Shown here in pieces: positions 6,673 to 14,877 of a DNA stretch of 64,000 nucleotides. The notes under the pieces were generated by a model. That model was not told the origin of the DNA and ran no database searches. It was given only the letters and a program-made list of their open reading frames with translations. This stretch comes from an uncultured Pelagibacteraceae bacterium (GTDB taxonomy: Bacteria > Pseudomonadota > Alphaproteobacteria > Pelagibacterales > Pelagibacteraceae). The stretch lies in the NCBI GenBank assembly GCA_902594235.1, contig CACJLJ010000003.1:134526-198525 (forward strand). Reading direction: 5' to 3'. The translations under genes were made by a program, and so were the position numbers. Each line of letters begins with the position of its first letter. Positions within the stretch are counted from its first letter, which is position 1.

Positions 6673-6998
6673 TGACTTATCTAGTAAACGACAAATGTAT
6701 AAAATGTAAATTAATGGATTGTGTTGAGGTATGCCCGGTAGATTGCTTTTACGAAGGTAAAAATATGCTTGTAATTAAACCTGATGAGTGTATAGATTGT
6801 GGCGTTTGCGAGCCAGAGTGCCCGATTGATGCAATTACTGCAGATACAGAACCTGGGAGTGAAAAATGGTTAGAGATCAATAAGAAATATTCTGAAATCT
6901 GGCCTAACATAAATGTAAAAAAAGATCCTCCTGCGGATCATGAAAAGTATAAAGATGAAAAAAATAAATTTGAAAAATATTTTAAAGAAAACATTTAA
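6672..6998 (+). CDS. fdxA: 7Fe-type ferredoxin (FdxA)
   Basis: A 108-residue low-potential ferredoxin that carries electrons on two iron-sulfur clusters. Cysteines are arranged as [17 protein letters not shown] and [12 protein letters not shown], the pattern of Azotobacter-type ferredoxin I with a [3Fe-4S] and a [4Fe-4S] cluster. The C-terminal tail ([17 protein letters not shown]) is also characteristic. ATG 6672 is preferred over the TTG one codon earlier because it overlaps the upstream stop. The adjacent carD gene overlaps its 3' end, a pairing common in alphaproteobacteria. Confidence 0.93.
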
Positions 6999-7809
6999 AA
7001 GAAAAAGTAAAAAGAAAGTTAAAAAAGCATTAAAGAAAAAAAAATTTAAAACTAAAAAATTATTACCCAAAAATTTAAAAAAGACATCTAAATCTAAATT
7101 AAAAAAGCAAACAAAAATCGAAAATAAAAGTTCAAATACTAAACAAGATACTTTAAGAATTTCAAAAAGTAACGAAATAAAACCTGAAATAAAAAAAGTT
7201 AAAAAACAAGATACTGAAAAAAGAGAATACAAAATAAAAGATCATGTCGTATATCCTAAACACGGAGTTGGACAAATTACAGAATTTAAAAAAATTAACA
7301 TTGGTGGAATCGATGTCGAAACATACGTGATTAAATTTGATAAAGATAAAGCTAACGGAATGGTGCCTGTAAATAAACAATCACATCTTAGACCTTTAGC
7401 GACAATTAATCAGGTTAATAAATGTATTTCTATTTTAAAGAGTAAACCAAAAATTAAAAGATCAATGTGGAGTAGGAGAGCTCAAGAATACGAGGCAAAA
7501 ATATCCTCTGGTAAAATCTATGAGCTTGCCGAAGTGGTAAGGGACTTAAACAAAGGTGATGATTTGATGGTTGATCAATCATATAGCGAAAGACAATTAT
7601 TTGAAAAAGCCTACGAAAGAATTCTTTCAGAATTTAGGGTAATTTTAAATATTTCTTTAGAGGATACACAAAAAAAATTGGATAAAGCTCTCAAGAGAAA
7701 CCTTGAAAATCAAACCAAAACTCCTCAACCAACAAATCCAAAATCACCCTCTACAGATATACAAGAAGAAGATAGTTTATCTGAAAGTGAAGAAACTTTA
7801 GAGGAATAA
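6940..7809 (+). CDS. carD: CarD/CdnL-family RNA polymerase-binding regulator with lysine-rich N-terminal tail
   Basis: CarD-family proteins bind RNA polymerase beta and stabilise promoter open complexes. The CarD core starts near residue 96 ([17 protein letters not shown]) and runs through a helical C-terminal domain ([20 protein letters not shown]). Alphaproteobacterial relatives are usually about 170-190 residues; this one is 289 because of an N-terminal extension in which 28 of the first 57 residues are Lys, plus an acidic C-terminal tail. Starts at 6940 and 6955 are both possible; either overlaps the ferredoxin 3' end and keeps most of the tail. The lysine tail resembles histone H1 C-terminal domains in composition and could bind DNA; that is inference. 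Confidence 0.9.
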
Positions 7810-7811
7810 AA

Positions 7812-7850
7812 AAAAACGCCTCCCACACAAAAGTTATGAGAAGCGTTTTT
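7812..7850. terminator. bidirectional rho-independent terminator
   Basis: AAAAACGC at the left pairs with GCGTTTTT at the right around a 23-base middle that adds a few more pairs (TC with GA). A-tract on one side and T-tract on the other allow termination in both directions: carD from the left and the small basic gene from the right. Confidence 0.75.
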
Positions 7851-7869: not shown

Positions 7870-7947
7870 TTATCTTCTTCTTCTTTTCTTAGCTTTTTTC
7901 TTAGCTTTTTTCTTAGCCTTCTTTGCTTTTTTTCTTCTCTTAGGCAT
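7870..7947 (-). CDS. 25-residue ultra-basic protein
   Basis: A tiny gene on the minus strand in the 336-base gap between carD and fadD. It has a strong Shine-Dalgarno sequence (AAGGGAG, about 8 bases before ATG), unusual for this window. The product starts MPKRRKKAKKAKKK, continues with AKKK repeats and ends in RRRR: 13 Lys, 6 Arg, 4 Ala, one Met and one Pro. It must bind nucleic acid or other polyanions; composition recalls histone tails, protamines and ribosomal extensions. The good ribosome site, own terminator and palindromic leader argue that it is expressed. I know no named family. Confidence 0.7.
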   Translation of the reverse strand: MPKRRKKAKKAKKKAKKKAKKRRRR

Positions 7948-7970
7948 CTTTAGCTCCCTTTTTAGTTAAA

Positions 7971-7987
7971 CGAATCAATTTGATTCG
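7971..7987. promoter_or_regulatory. perfect 17-bp palindrome in the leader of the basic-peptide gene
   Basis: CGAATCAA-T-TTGATTCG, an 8-bp perfect inverted repeat with one central base, lying 24-40 bases upstream of the ATG of the 25-residue protein. It could be an operator for a dimeric regulator or a hairpin in the 5' leader. The rest of the gap (7988-8145) is A+T-rich with nothing recognisable. Confidence 0.5.
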
Positions 7988-8145
7988 CTGTTATGTTATT
8001 TTTATTTTTTTATACACGTTATGTCAATTCTTTAATTAAAGTTAAGATTTTCAAAAATAAATTTAAAATAAAATAAAATTTTTATAATTTAAAAGTGTAA
8101 AAAAGTTAATGTTTACGCGCTTTATAATCAAATATTTTTGTTAAA

Positions 8146-10313: not shown

Positions 10314-10769
10314 ATGAGTTCAAATGATAGAAAACAGATTAGAAATGCTTTTAATCTACTTAAAGATAATGACGAGAGTATTCACTTAAAAGACTACTTG
10401 ATAACAATGTGCCCAAATATAACTGAAACGAAATTTGATGATGAAGATATTTTGAAGAACAGAATACGAATGATAAATGCCATTGTTAACAGACGATTTT
10501 TGAAGAAAAAATATAAGACAAGAACAGACAGAATTATGTTTCACAATTTTATTGAAAATTCATATAATAAGAATTTGATACACACTCACTCTATAATCAG
10601 AATACCTAGATTTCTGCTAGAGAGAGTAAAAGAAGTCTTTAAATACCTGAAACATATAGTCGTAAATAAGTTCTATTTTAGTATCAGAATTACTAAAAGA
10701 CTTAATCGTGCGACCAGATATATGACGAAACACTACCACGAGAATAACGACCGATATTTCGTCAATTAG
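10314..10769 (+). CDS. putative small HUH-type Rep-like protein
   Basis: A 151-residue basic protein with no clear whole-length family that I can name. Three spaced elements recall HUH rolling-circle initiators: IMFHNFIE near 74-81 (position of motif 1), IHTHSIIRIP near 89-98 with His90 and His92 (motif 2, H-x-H), and RYMTKHY near 135-141 (motif 3, Y-x-x-K with Tyr136 and Lys139). The middle residue of H-x-H is Thr rather than bulky hydrophobic, so metal binding is not certain. Weak Shine-Dalgarno GAAAGAAG lies before the ATG. It is the first plus-strand gene of the element, behind the candidate origin region. Confidence 0.45.
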   Translation: MSSNDRKQIRNAFNLLKDNDESIHLKDYLITMCPNITETKFDDEDILKNRIRMINAIVNRRFLKKKYKTRTDRIMFHNFIENSYNKNLIHTHSIIRIPRFLLERVKEVFKYLKHIVVNKFYFSIRITKRLNRATRYMTKHYHENNDRYFVN

Positions 10770-10860
10770 TGAGTTGAGTACATATACTCATAAATATCAA
10801 TAACTCGTCTGTAGACTTGTGTAAGAGAGTTTAACAAGATGAAAAAAAAGAGAAATAGAT

Positions 10861-11010
10861 ATGAACCCAAAGATAAAAGAACTAATAAGAAAAATAGAGA
10901 CAGAAAAGAACACCTTAAAGAGATTGTCCTTGTTAGAAGAATTAGATGTACAAGTGACCATTTTAAGAAAAGAACAAGAAAAGAAATTTAAATTAGAAAG
11001 AAAACTATAA
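10861..11010 (+). CDS. 49-residue coiled-coil protein of the element
   Basis: Short gene whose TAA overlaps the next ATG (TAATG at 11008-11012), which supports translation by coupling. The product begins MNPKIKELIRKIETEK and is almost wholly Lys/Glu/Leu heptad-like, predicted to be one long helix or coiled coil. An arm-type repeat (10819-10828) and a GAGTA/TACTC hairpin (10776-10789) lie in the gap before it. Another 50-residue ORF overlaps in a different frame from 10839, but lacks the coupling. Confidence 0.6.
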   Translation: MNPKIKELIRKIETEKNTLKRLSLLEELDVQVTILRKEQEKKFKLERKL

Positions 11011-11375
11011 TGACTTTAATTCCAAGAAATGCTGAACAATTAAGACGAGTTGCTAGTTCGCATACAAAAAATTTAAAAAAACAAAATACTCAACCTGACT
11101 ATACAAATATATCAGATACAATGAAGATAGACATTGCGTCTATGAAGAAGTCTAAATTATATAAAGAGACAAAGAATTACCTATCGCAAGAAGTTGCTGA
11201 AGAAGAGTTAATGATGACTTTAAATCATTATTCACTTCACAATTATAGAGATAGAGTAATGTCGTTTATTGCTAAAATTACTCAACAACAACCAAGTGCT
11301 TTTACTATGCGTGTTCTTGCTGAATTTTTGAGTGATGTTTTAAACGAATACAACATAAAGAAAAATATAAAGTAA
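11010..11375 (+). CDS. hypothetical protein of the element, 121 residues
   Basis: Second gene of a three-gene plus-strand set (10861-11571). The N-terminal half is polar and basic (LIPRNAEQLRRVASSH), the C-terminal half helical (KNYLSQEVAEEELMMTLNHY, then SFIAKITQQQPSAF). No cysteines, signal peptide or catalytic motif stand out and I do not recognise the family. Its position between a coiled-coil peptide and a ribbon-helix-helix protein suggests replication or copy control, which is only a guess. Confidence 0.65.
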   Translation: MTLIPRNAEQLRRVASSHTKNLKKQNTQPDYTNISDTMKIDIASMKKSKLYKETKNYLSQEVAEEELMMTLNHYSLHNYRDRVMSFIAKITQQQPSAFTMRVLAEFLSDVLNEYNIKKNIK

Positions 11376-11385
11376 AGATAAGACA

Positions 11386-11571
11386 ATGAAAAGAAACTCC
11401 CAAAAAAAGAAAAATATAACGATTTGTGTTGACCCAGTTCAATACGAAATATTTAAAACTAGAAGAAGTAATAATCTTCAATCTGTATCGTCCTTCATTA
11501 ACTCACTTATTACTTGCTCAAATAAATCTATCATTGATGAGAGTAAGATTATGAATGTGATAAATAGTTAA
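11386..11571 (+). CDS. ribbon-helix-helix DNA-binding protein
   Basis: A 61-residue protein with the Arc/CopG layout: basic N terminus, beta strand NITICVDPVQYEIF, then two helices around NNLQSVSSFINSLIT. The strand and the SVSSFINSLI turn-helix match many CopG-type proteins (ITIRVDPELY...SVSSLINELI in typical members). Such proteins bind palindromic operators as dimers and often control plasmid copy number or antitoxin operons. No toxin gene is seen beside it. Likely the element's own regulator. Confidence 0.65.
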   Translation: MKRNSQKKKNITICVDPVQYEIFKTRRSNNLQSVSSFINSLITCSNKSIIDESKIMNVINS

Positions 11572-11585
11572 TGATTTAACATAAC

Positions 11586-11647
11586 GAGTGTGTGTGCTTC
11601 TATCATAAACTTTGTATCGTATCGTAAAGTTTTCAACACACACACTC
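11586..11647. terminator. large nested hairpin between convergent operons
   Basis: An 11-bp perfect outer stem, GAGTGTGTGTG (11586-11596) with CACACACACTC (11637-11647), encloses a 7-bp inner stem AAACTTT (11607-11613) with AAAGTTT (11626-11632). The inner loop is GTATCGTATCGT. It lies between the end of the plus-strand set and the end of the minus-strand lipoprotein gene. A bidirectional transcription stop is the simplest role, though no long T-tract follows; a DNA cruciform used in replication is another possibility. Confidence 0.6.
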
Positions 11648-11653
11648 ACTCAT

Positions 11654-12100
11654 TTAAGTGTCTAACTTGTATTCAATAACAATATAACTTCTATACTTTC
11701 CACCTTGTACAAAAGTTTTATCATAAACAATTTTGTATTGATTTAAATTAGTCTCAAATATTTGTGCTACTTCATTTGAAGTATAAGATTTATTGATACC
11801 AGACTTTGTATCTTCTTTAATAGTTTGACTTTCATTTTTAATTAACGAATTAGACAAACTATCACTTACTAAAACCTTTGCTTGTAAAAGTGCTTTAGAT
11901 TTTGCTAGTTCAAACGATTTGCTAGTAGAAGTACCGCAACCATAAATCTTGCTATCGCTACTTTTGTATTTACTACAAACTGCTTCATTAACTTTAAGAA
12001 AGTCCGACATATTGCTAATAGTAGTTTTATTCTTTGCTATATTGTTTGATGAACAACCAACAAGAACAAGACCGACTAATAAGACTAGAATAGTCCTCAT
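11654..12100 (-). CDS. LPP20-like lipoprotein of the element
   Basis: A 148-residue lipoprotein. The signal peptide ends in a lipobox LVGCSS, so Cys16 would be lipidated and the protein anchored in a membrane facing the periplasm. The body (YGCGTSTSKSFELAKSKALL and the final YRSYIVIEYKL) matches the LPP20-like domain seen in several envelope lipoproteins. A very strong Shine-Dalgarno sequence AAAGGGGG lies before the ATG. It is the last gene of the minus-strand set that begins with the serine recombinase. Surface modification or exclusion of competing phage is a plausible role for such cargo, without direct evidence. Confidence 0.75.
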   Translation of the reverse strand: MRTILVLLVGLVLVGCSSNNIAKNKTTISNMSDFLKVNEAVCSKYKSSDSKIYGCGTSTSKSFELAKSKALLQAKVLVSDSLSNSLIKNESQTIKEDTKSGINKSYTSNEVAQIFETNLNQYKIVYDKTFVQGGKYRSYIVIEYKLDT

Positions 12101-12354: not shown

Positions 12355-12592
12355 AGATTTGCCTTTCAACATTCAACAATTCTTTTTGAAGTTTAGTACC
12401 TATCAATTTTAATAGTAGAATAGTCGCATAATCCGCCTCATTTTTAATGATTTTTGAACGACAATGACTATTACATTCAGAACTGAACATATGAGTAATT
12501 GTTGCCTCAAAATATGAAGTAGAACGACCAAATGCTACTGCTGTTGTTAATAGACAGAAACTAAAGAAAAGAATTGTTAACAATCTAAACAT
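12347..12592 (-). CDS. small exported protein of the element (81 residues)
   Basis: A signal peptide MFRLLTILFFSFCLLTTAVA precedes a mature part of about 60 residues with a C-x3-C pair (SECNSHCRSK) and a helical, Leu-rich C terminus. A Shine-Dalgarno AAAGGA lies before ATG 12590-12592; a GTG one codon earlier is an alternative. The start overlaps the 3' end of the recombinase gene by 8 bases, so the two are coupled. I do not recognise the family; together with the next two genes it forms a three-gene exported-protein cargo. Confidence 0.6.
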   Translation of the reverse strand: MFRLLTILFFSFCLLTTAVAFGRSTSYFEATITHMFSSECNSHCRSKIIKNEADYATILLLKLIGTKLQKELLNVERQIYD

Positions 12593-13295
12593 CACACATA
12601 TTCCTTTCTAACTCTATATTACAGATGTTTTTGATTAGTTGTTCTTCTCTATCTCTAGTTAAGAGTTTGTTAATAAAAGAGTAATGCCATTTTCTGCTAG
12701 TGTACTTTTCCATAAATGACTTAATCTCTTTATACTTTTTACCTTTTGCTCTTAACGATTTAACGAGATTGATTTCTTTTTGTTCTTTTTCACAAACAAC
12801 AAGTTGACCATTTTCACCCAAGTCATAACCTTTTCGTACTTTACCACCTGTGTACTTACCTTGTTTTTTGAGTTTATCTTTTGCTACTATTTGTTTTTCA
12901 GATAAAGACTTTCTGTACCATTCAGACATAATAGAAAGTATTTGATAGAAAACAGACCCAAGACTATCAGATGAAATAACATCTCCTAAATCAGTAAAGA
13001 TTAGTCTGATTTTAAGTCTTCTATATTTCTCAACATCATTAACTAACCCATAATGAGACCGAGAATATCTATCTAATGCTGAACAGATAATAGTATCGCC
13101 TTTTTTAAGTTTAGTAGTTAACAAACCACCTTGCTCTCTTTGATAGAGTAATAATCCACCAGAACACACATCTTCAAACCATTCGTTAACTCTTAAATTG
13201 TGAATATTACAATACGAGTTTATTTTAAACTTTTGTGTATCAAAAGAACTTGTACTACCTTCTTCACTAGACTTTCGTAAGTATCCATAAATCAT
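12585..13295 (-). CDS. serine recombinase (resolvase/invertase family)
   Basis: A 236-residue small serine recombinase. The catalytic region reads YLRKSSEEG at residues 5-13, with Arg7 and Ser9 in the positions of the YxRVST motif. SALDRYSRS (near 82-90) supplies the conserved Asp-Arg and Arg, and MSEWYRKSLSEKQ the long E helix. A short C-terminal DNA-binding region follows. Strong Shine-Dalgarno AAAGGAG. It heads the minus-strand cargo set, and an 8-bp inverted repeat (13315-13340) lies just upstream. Having it beside a tyrosine integrase suggests a separate job such as dimer resolution or inversion of a small segment. Confidence 0.88.
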   Translation of the reverse strand: MIYGYLRKSSEEGSTSSFDTQKFKINSYCNIHNLRVNEWFEDVCSGGLLLYQREQGGLLTTKLKKGDTIICSALDRYSRSHYGLVNDVEKYRRLKIRLIFTDLGDVISSDSLGSVFYQILSIMSEWYRKSLSEKQIVAKDKLKKQGKYTGGKVRKGYDLGENGQLVVCEKEQKEINLVKSLRAKGKKYKEIKSFMEKYTSRKWHYSFINKLLTRDREEQLIKNICNIELERNMCDV

Positions 13296-13314
13296 AAAAA
13301 ACTCCTTTCGTTTA

Positions 13315-13340
13315 TTTCATTGAGATACATCACAATGAAA
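13315..13340. promoter_or_regulatory. inverted repeat upstream of the serine recombinase
   Basis: TTTCATTG (13315-13322) and CAATGAAA (13333-13340) form a perfect 8-bp inverted repeat with a 10-base spacer, 20-45 bases before the recombinase ATG. It may be an operator, or the recombinase's own binding site, as res sites often lie in front of the resolvase gene. Confidence 0.45.
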
Positions 13341-13349
13341 ACGCTAACA

Positions 13350-13423
13350 AAAACCTAGTCCTAGTCAACCATTTGCTTGTATTGATACTCTTACACAATC
13401 CAATAGACAATTATGACTTACAC
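13350..13423. repeat. internal cluster of attachment-arm-like repeats
   Basis: This stretch reuses pieces of the element's right end: AAAACCTAG (13350-13358, also 14912-14920), an inverted arm-type decamer (13387-13396) and ACACAATCCAATAGA (13393-13407, 14 of 15 bases identical to 14848-14862). They lie on the 3' side of the internal tRNA-Leu. The order differs from the right end, so it looks like a relic of another attachment region captured with the tRNA. Confidence 0.5.
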
Positions 13424-13469
13424 AAAAAGAACGACAATTTAATGAATTTTTATGATTTTAAAGTGAGTG

Positions 13470-13552
13470 TGCGAGACGAGAGACTTGAACTCTCACCTAG
13501 TTGCCTAGACAGGATTTTGAGTCCTGCGTGTCTACCATTCCACCAGTCTCGC
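13470..13552 (-). tRNA. intact element-borne tRNA-Leu (anticodon CAA)
   Basis: An 83-nt class II tRNA. Acceptor GCGAGAC pairs with GTCTCGC, discriminator A; D arm GGTGGAATGGTAGAC; anticodon arm CAGGA-CTCAAAA-TCCTG; long variable arm CTAG-GCAA-CTAG; T arm GAGAG-TTCAAGT-CTCTC. All stems are perfect. No CCA is encoded (the next bases are CAC), unlike tRNA-Arg and the split tRNA-Leu of the host. It differs from the host copy in acceptor, anticodon stem and variable arm while keeping the same anticodon loop. It starts 21 bases after the integrase stop on the same strand, so it is probably cut out of the integrase transcript. Confidence 0.95.
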
Positions 13553-13573
13553 ATAAGTGTTTTTTAAAAAAAA

Positions 13574-14830
13574 TTAAGATACTGCTTTTAATTTACTTCG
13601 TCCAGTCTGTAACCAAACATCTAACATACTTTCTATTGCTGAATTTGCTGTATAGTTTCTATCAATCATAGTAGTTGAAGTACCACAATTCTTTGCTATT
13701 GCTGTTGAATTAACACCTTTATCTAACATCATTTGAATAAATGTATTTCTAAAAGACTTACTATCAATTGTAAGAACATCATCTCCTCTTTTGATAGTTT
13801 TTAATTTTGCCTCTTTAAGTAAAGAGTTAAGTCCTTCTCTAAATGAATTAACACCCCAAACTCTTCCTTTTAACTGACCAAGACCTGTTGTTTTATATAA
13901 AGTGATTAGTCGTTTGTATGCGAAATAAGAAGAAGAAACAGACTTACAATATCGTTCAGAAGTTTTAGACTTTCTAACCCATATTTTTAGATAGTACCTA
14001 GAGTTATCATCTAATCTAATTTCATTTAACATTGCTTGTTTAGACTTTTGCCTATCAACCAATTCAACATCTTCAAAGTGTAAGTTTAAACATTCATCAA
14101 CCCTTAAACCACTACCAACCATAAACACTATAAATTGATGTAATCGTTCTCTTTCAAATCTTATCCTTAAAGTACGACCAGATTGATACCTTTTCCTAGA
14201 GACAGATAGTAAATGATTATATTGTTCTTTAGTAAGACCTGCTCTTTTAGTCCTTTGTGACCTTAATTTTTTAGATAGTATTTTTGCTATATTCTCTAAC
14301 TTATCTTTTCTGATTTTGTTTTTATATGCCCAAGAAGTAAAACCAGAAATCGCCATTAAATCTCCTTTTAAAGTTTGACCTCTTAATACTTTTGATTGTG
14401 CTTTTGCTCTTGCTAATCGCCAAATGATAAATGTCTTTTGAATATCTGTTGCTGTTAAAGTCTCAACCTTACACTTCATAAACTCATTACATTTAGAGAT
14501 GTAATTCCATCTCTCTTTGTACCACTTCTTTGTTCGTTGCTCTATATCAGTTGAATTTTCAATATCAGATAAGAAACGATTGTATAAATCTTTAACAGAA
14601 TTTTGATGTATCTGAATATCGTGTTTCTTTTTAAAGTGTAATTCATCATACCATTTAAAAAGAATAGTTTTTGCCTTATTGAAGTTAGAAGTACCAGATG
14701 ATTTAATAGTTTGTTTAGATTGTATGTAAGTTCTGCCGACCCAATTATTAGACTTTAACTTACCTTTGTATTTGTCTGTACGAACATAGATGTGTAATTT
14801 ATTGTCTTTGAATGAGTGAATTTTGCCCAT
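13574..14830 (-). CDS. int: tyrosine recombinase / integrase
   Basis: A 418-residue phage-type integrase. Counting from ATG 14828-14830, an N-terminal arm-binding part is followed by a SAM-like core-binding domain (about 70-190) and a catalytic domain. Catalytic Arg243 is in VGSGLRVDECLNL, a Lys in KSKTSERY, the second Arg361 in SKSFRNTFIQ and the nucleophile Tyr393 in MIDRNY. The His before the second Arg is replaced by Lys and the next His/Trp position is Thr (CGTSTTMI), as in other GTS-type integrases. A GTG seven codons upstream is an alternative start. It lies next to the right end, its usual place, and should catalyse insertion in and excision from tRNA-Leu. Confidence 0.93.
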   Translation of the reverse strand: MGKIHSFKDNKLHIYVRTDKYKGKLKSNNWVGRTYIQSKQTIKSSGTSNFNKAKTILFKWYDELHFKKKHDIQIHQNSVKDLYNRFLSDIENSTDIEQRTKKWYKERWNYISKCNEFMKCKVETLTATDIQKTFIIWRLARAKAQSKVLRGQTLKGDLMAISGFTSWAYKNKIRKDKLENIAKILSKKLRSQRTKRAGLTKEQYNHLLSVSRKRYQSGRTLRIRFERERLHQFIVFMVGSGLRVDECLNLHFEDVELVDRQKSKQAMLNEIRLDDNSRYYLKIWVRKSKTSERYCKSVSSSYFAYKRLITLYKTTGLGQLKGRVWGVNSFREGLNSLLKEAKLKTIKRGDDVLTIDSKSFRNTFIQMMLDKGVNSTAIAKNCGTSTTMIDRNYTANSAIESMLDVWLQTGRSKLKAVS

Positions 14831-14877
14831 ATTTAAGTAAAAGTATAACACAATCTAATAGAAGAGTGTATTGATTT

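Follow-up and report, generated by a model that had tools for sequence, protein, structure and literature searches.

A 25-codon open reading frame (ORF) at positions 7870 to 7947, on the minus strand of a 64,000-nucleotide stretch of DNA from an uncultured Pelagibacteraceae bacterium (the window), is, on comparative grounds, a real gene, apparently unannotated and present in nearly every SAR11 genome checked. It encodes a peptide made mostly of lysine and arginine, which is likely, though far from certainly, a minimal, disordered polycation resembling the tail of histone H1 and condensing chromosomal DNA. SAR11 is among the most abundant marine bacterial groups and has a streamlined genome (1.19 Mb for the window genome), so that a single-copy core gene possibly missing from annotations deserves attention. 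At 25 residues, the product falls below the usual gene-length cut-offs.

A Lys/Arg-rich peptide gene convergent with carD

The ORF starts with ATG, ends with a TAA stop at 7870-7872 and is translated as MPKRRKKAKKAKKKAKKKAKKRRRR, with 13 Lys and 6 Arg (76%), as a preliminary description of the window had reported. The peptide has AKKK repeats, comprises four amino-acid types after the start residue, carries a net charge of about +19 and was judged from its composition to be intrinsically disordered. It comes from the sole ATG-started ORF of at least 20 residues with at least 50% Lys/Arg within the 64-kb window, and no such ORF arose when the entire window was dinucleotide-shuffled 40 times.

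Protein searches with the 25-residue query, at E values up to 10, gave matches in 27 of 101 genomes of the same genus, 14 of which (the window's own included) were 100% identical across all 25 residues. As such a short and biased query misses many copies, we took the neighboring gene carD (6940 to 7809, plus strand; Pfam matches to CarD_TRCF_RID and CarD_C) as a synteny anchor, and it also served as a divergence control. CarD was found in 82 of the 101 genomes, and all 82 downstream stretches were inspected. At 79 of these loci, GGGAGNTAAA[A/G]ATG is followed by a Lys/Arg-rich ORF convergent with carD, and at the other three the contig edge is reached within 146 nt. This synteny backs the earlier proposal that length cut-offs had caused a credible gene to be overlooked. 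The start motif was single copy in 48 of 51 same-genus genomes, and a reversed control pattern gave no matches. Of the 80 matches to the motif listed from a named collection, 75 carry the peptide and one is truncated by the end of its contig, while the remaining four arose by chance in other bacteria. Chance matches aside, the listed start-motif loci fall in records named Pelagibacteraceae or Candidatus Pelagibacter, which identifies the window as SAR11 DNA. Loss of the frame in close relatives would have spoken against a gene, but the frame is retained, with just two breaks (loci L087 and L156), each in an A-run of a single draft genome, so that the proposal stands.

Both breaks represent a changed A-run, which fits slippage or sequencing error; the intact gene keeps its A-runs short. 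As for carD itself, SAR11 CarD has a Lys-rich N-terminal tail of about 90 residues ahead of the RID domain at residue 97, and an acidic C-end. A basic tail is thus carried by the protein whose gene adjoins that of the free basic peptide. For carD, the ATG as listed overlaps an upstream ferredoxin-like ORF, and the real start is possibly at 6955.

Distribution in the family and beyond

CarD was present in 54 of 60 genomes of the family, and 51 loci were inspected, 7 of them from the genus of the window. The other 44 represent ten genera plus one unassessable locus, and 42 of them carry an ORF of 19 to 58 residues, which in one case starts with GTG; the two without an intact ORF are L156, with its A-run frameshift, and a contig end. 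One genus has a 58-residue form, KPAAKKKAPAKK, with KPAA repeats, and one genus carries MAKKRKKAAKKKVAKKPAKRKVAKKKPAAKKRKPAAKKKAPAKKRKPAKKKTAKKRKR. In a sister family, CarD was found in 32 of 40 genomes and 12 loci were fetched. Eleven of these encode, convergently with carD, a KAAPKKK-type protein of 60 to 99 residues, MEELK/MEDLK..KKAAPKKKRKAAKRKPAKKKAAPKKK.., and the twelfth is a contig end. The N-end of this protein consists of some 10 mostly non-basic residues (MEELKVIFAK), and its leader shares TTGACA and the ACGAATCA hairpin with the Pelagibacteraceae loci.

CarD was found in 97 of 115 genomes of the class Alphaproteobacteria. Of 28 loci inspected in other alphaproteobacterial families, none has a comparable convergent Lys/Arg-rich ORF 3′ of carD. 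A search of 111 class genomes with an 85-residue relative gave no match, but it was run without a positive control and so shows nothing. In another alphaproteobacterium (L372), carD is preceded on its own strand by an H1-like ORF (MAAKATKKTKTSAKKATKSAAKAKAKPKAK..). A viral origin was also considered and rejected: the pattern AGGGAGCTAAAGATGSC matched 11 viral contigs, none of which codes for such a peptide.

Selection on positive charge

Across 127 homologues (76 distinct; the frameshifted L087 and L156 were excluded), the residues after the start are solely K, R, A, P, T, G, S, and V. Single-nucleotide changes in these codons would lead mostly to N, T, stop, S, E, R, Q, and I, and the confinement of the residues to the former set shows selection on positive charge. 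The Lys/Arg share is 75 to 78% and the remainder is chiefly alanine, with proline nearly absent from the window copy. Length changes by whole codons, from 19 to 58 residues in the family, as expected where charge rather than a fold matters. Positive charge is thus the conserved property, while length and repeat number drift.

Promoter, leader, and terminator

The preliminary description had also mentioned a strong ribosome site, a terminator belonging to the gene and a palindromic leader, and all three were located on the minus strand. The ribosome-binding site, AGGGAG (7954 to 7959), lies 6 nt before the ATG and forms with the following CTAAAG the block AGGGAGCTAAAG, almost invariant across the genus. 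The palindrome CGAATCAAATTGATTCG (7971 to 7987) is predicted to fold as a 5′ hairpin of 7 bp, CGAATCA-(loop)-TGATTCG. Upstream, at 7998 to 8027, is a candidate sigma-70-type promoter, TTGACA-18-AAAAAT (or 17-TAAAAA), with a perfect −35 element and a predicted start at about 7992. TTGACA is present in 77 of 79 same-genus leaders, 40 to 43 nt upstream of GAATC. A predicted intrinsic terminator, with a 16-pair stem and a T-run, occupies 7812 to 7850, between the ORF and carD, and is conserved in relatives with stem variants.

The left arm of the hairpin contains an invariant GAATC, a GANTC motif (7982 to 7986). It was found in 121 of 122 leaders, the lone exception being a leader of just 12 nt, and in all 11 from the sister family. 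None of the 43 other-genus leaders searched lacked CGAATCA, although these had themselves been located by searching for CGAATCA. The right arm is also GANTC within the genus (75 of 78 leaders), but it is never so in the 37 leaders from eight other genera; there it reads GATTTG, with a G-U pair, or the pairing is shifted to the next bases (TCACTTAA..TTAAGTGA). As the right arm changes yet pairing persists while the left arm stays invariant, both a hairpin and the left GAATC sequence are conserved. The folding energy of the leader is better than that of nearly all shuffles in most genera, weakly so in g2 and g4. By inspection, a CTCC/CCTC stretch could pair with the ribosome site in some genera (L167-L178, among others) and in the sister family. 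Sister-family leaders such as L349 have an invariant AACCTCTAAC opposite the ribosome site GGGGAGAT, possibly a translation-control switch.

Constraint on the mRNA

We compared codons across the 14 loci at which carD adjoins a gene for the identical peptide. Of 2184 codon pairs compared in the ORF, 1.1% differ. In the neighboring carD, where the protein itself differs at 15%, the corresponding value for same-amino-acid codons is 40%. For rpmH, a short Lys/Arg-rich ribosomal gene used as a control, the value was 39% in the 11 of 14 genomes where it was found. With 12 identical-peptide groups taken together, the ORF differed at 2.9%, carD at 37% and the Lys, Arg, and Ala codons of carD at 27%; the least constrained group showed 14% synonymous difference. 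The leader, the ribosome site and the 3′ region are likewise conserved. Given these differences from carD and rpmH, the mRNA is constrained as well, its nucleotide conservation exceeding coding need.

Avoidance of long A-runs accounts for part of this codon conservation, not all of it. The longest A-run is 6 to 8 in 79 of 79 copies, whereas 91% of recoded copies reach 9 or more, and AAG makes up 30% of Lys codons in the ORF versus 13% in the window. The constant AGA and the position-specific GCT or GCA go beyond what A-run avoidance explains. The codon constraint might stem from very high expression or from an RNA function, both of which are possible. The near-frozen codons thus pose a separate question, that of selection at the mRNA level. 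They and the invariant GANTC are additions to what the preliminary description had claimed.

A putative link to the cell cycle

GAATC is a CcrM methylation site, placed here at about +6, just downstream of the predicted start and inside the hairpin. The window genome encodes GcrA (E 1.4e-37) and one N6/N4 methylase, which is CcrM-like and adjoins an RNase-HII-like ORF identified by eye; such a neighborhood is typical of CcrM. For Pelagibacter, a link between GANTC methylation and the cell cycle has been reported (PMC9516812), as has a CcrM homologue in SAR11 (PMC3973325). The invariant CcrM site at this position suggests that the gene may be timed by replication through GcrA/CcrM. It bears on whether SAR11 couples the supply of a chromatin protein to replication.

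Possible functions of the peptide

The preliminary description had suggested a nucleoid, RNA or ribosome factor akin to a free histone tail. We prefer the nucleoid as the target over RNA or the ribosome because the length ranges from 19 to 99 residues, and the H1-like KAAPKKK proteins of 60 to 99 residues at the sister-family locus add weight to the likeness to a histone tail. The single-copy protein of about 25 residues would be an H1-tail-like polycation cut to its minimum, which most likely acts beside HU, neutralizing chromosomal DNA and condensing it non-specifically. It would be made from its own short mRNA, with its promoter, 5′-terminal hairpin, strong ribosome site and terminator, and its gene, beside carD, is presumably highly expressed and perhaps timed in the cell cycle by replication through GcrA/CcrM.

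Several points weigh against a DNA-condensing polycation. Neither the peptide (searched against Pfam, NCBIfam, and PDB) nor its relatives of 60 to 99 residues (against Pfam and NCBIfam) gave a match. The putative homology of the 25-residue and the longer proteins is based on locus, orientation and leader, without alignable sequence. Polycations bind both DNA and RNA, and the near-frozen codons exceed the needs of a role that depends on charge alone. A bolder version, which we regard as doubtful though conceivable, is that the peptide is the smallest known free histone tail, replication-timed by GcrA/CcrM, very abundant and packing the chromosome. It would have arisen from an H1-like protein by genome streamlining, and its mRNA would also be under functional constraint.

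The peptide might instead belong to the ribosome or bind rRNA, as a tiny counterpart of eL41 in eukaryotes and archaea or of bTHX/bS22 in bacteria. Its size and basicity are close to those of eL41, its presence is clade-wide and its ribosome site strong, and the CTCC/CCTC stretch in the leaders of some genera and of the sister family resembles autoregulated ribosomal-protein leaders. Nevertheless, we consider this unlikely, as lengths of 19 to 58 residues in the family and 60 to 99 in the sister family, with a variable number of repeats, are unlike peptides of a fixed ribosomal pocket. No PDB sequence matched at E values up to 10, a search whose sensitivity is limited by the short, biased query.

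The synonymous conservation, the conserved leader, ribosome site and 3′ region, and a hairpin more stable than its shuffles could also indicate a dual-function RNA or one whose role is mainly regulatory, with the transcript as the conserved agent and the peptide secondary. Changes across clades are, however, limited to in-frame insertions or deletions and charge-keeping substitutions, and part of the codon constraint is explained by A-run avoidance. No Rfam family was matched at its gathering score (best 30.1 bits versus 56), and the comparisons showed no conserved long-range pairing, so that an RNA as the main agent is quite unlikely.

A secreted cationic antimicrobial peptide is very improbable. 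Cationic small ORFs from metagenomes, to which Pelagibacter is a large contributor, have been called candidate antimicrobials (PMC10491242), but inspection of the homologues revealed neither a signal peptide nor a hydrophobic stretch, and this is a single-copy core gene at a fixed rather than variable locus, with H1-like relatives. That a chance ORF arose in a purine-rich spacer, as the A/G-rich region might suggest, is refuted by the 40 shuffles and by its retention at 79 of 82 loci, which leave this a negligible prospect.

Published data and other features of the window

Searches for small, lysine-rich or histone-like proteins of SAR11 and for three peptide fragments found no report of the gene in the literature covered, which was incomplete and does not prove absence. 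The HTCC7211 mdRNA-Seq paper (PMC5069720), in the portion available, deals with annotated genes only and reports hupA as high. The peptide would be hard to detect by trypsin-based proteomics, as it would be cleaved into pieces of one to three residues. Elsewhere in the window, serine-recombinase-like and tyrosine-integrase-like ORFs lie side by side at 12585 to 14851 on the minus strand (by eye), near small ORFs of unknown nature at 10314 to 12100, possibly forming an integrated element.

Comparison with known systems

Like eL41, the carD-side peptide is about 25 residues long and extremely basic and has its own tiny gene, but eL41 is of fixed length with a ribosomal site, whereas the peptide varies from 19 to 58 residues and has AKKK repeats. 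The candidate structured RNAs of Pelagibacter (Meyer et al. 2009, PMC2704228) are similar in being conserved intergenic RNA elements in SAR11; the portion of that text searched does not mention the carD-side element ("carD," 0 matches). With GcrA/CcrM-regulated alphaproteobacterial promoters, the gene shares a GANTC in the promoter or start region and a genome that has GcrA and a CcrM-like methylase, but here the site is just 3′ of the predicted start and methylation dependence is putative.

Chlamydial Hc1 and Hc2 are further H1-like proteins of this type. Another H1-like tail is found on contig 2 of the window genome (L003, 1277 to 2575, minus strand), where a 432-residue protein, possibly FecR-like with a signal-like N-end (by eye), terminates in about 170 residues of KKKAKK/KKPAKKKK repeats and is apparently exported. 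The K/P/A repeats of AlgP/PhaF are described as H1-like and DNA binding (PMC9239181). The carD-side peptide differs from these H1-like proteins in its length of 19 to 30 residues in most SAR11, its near lack of proline, a C-end richer in arginine, the absence of a Pfam match and that of the helical N-terminal domain (124 residues in AlgP). It resembles them in being Lys/Ala(/Pro)-rich, disordered by composition and strongly cationic, and its relatives of 58 to 99 residues, found in the sister family and one genus, have the KPAA/KAAP repeats of a Lys/Ala/Pro-rich repetitive cationic tail. The KPAA tail of AlgP is its best-described bacterial counterpart. The peptide could offer a natural minimal model for charge-only DNA condensation. 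If the bolder version is right, 25 residues of four amino-acid types after the start would serve as a linker-histone tail in cells that are among the most abundant in the ocean.
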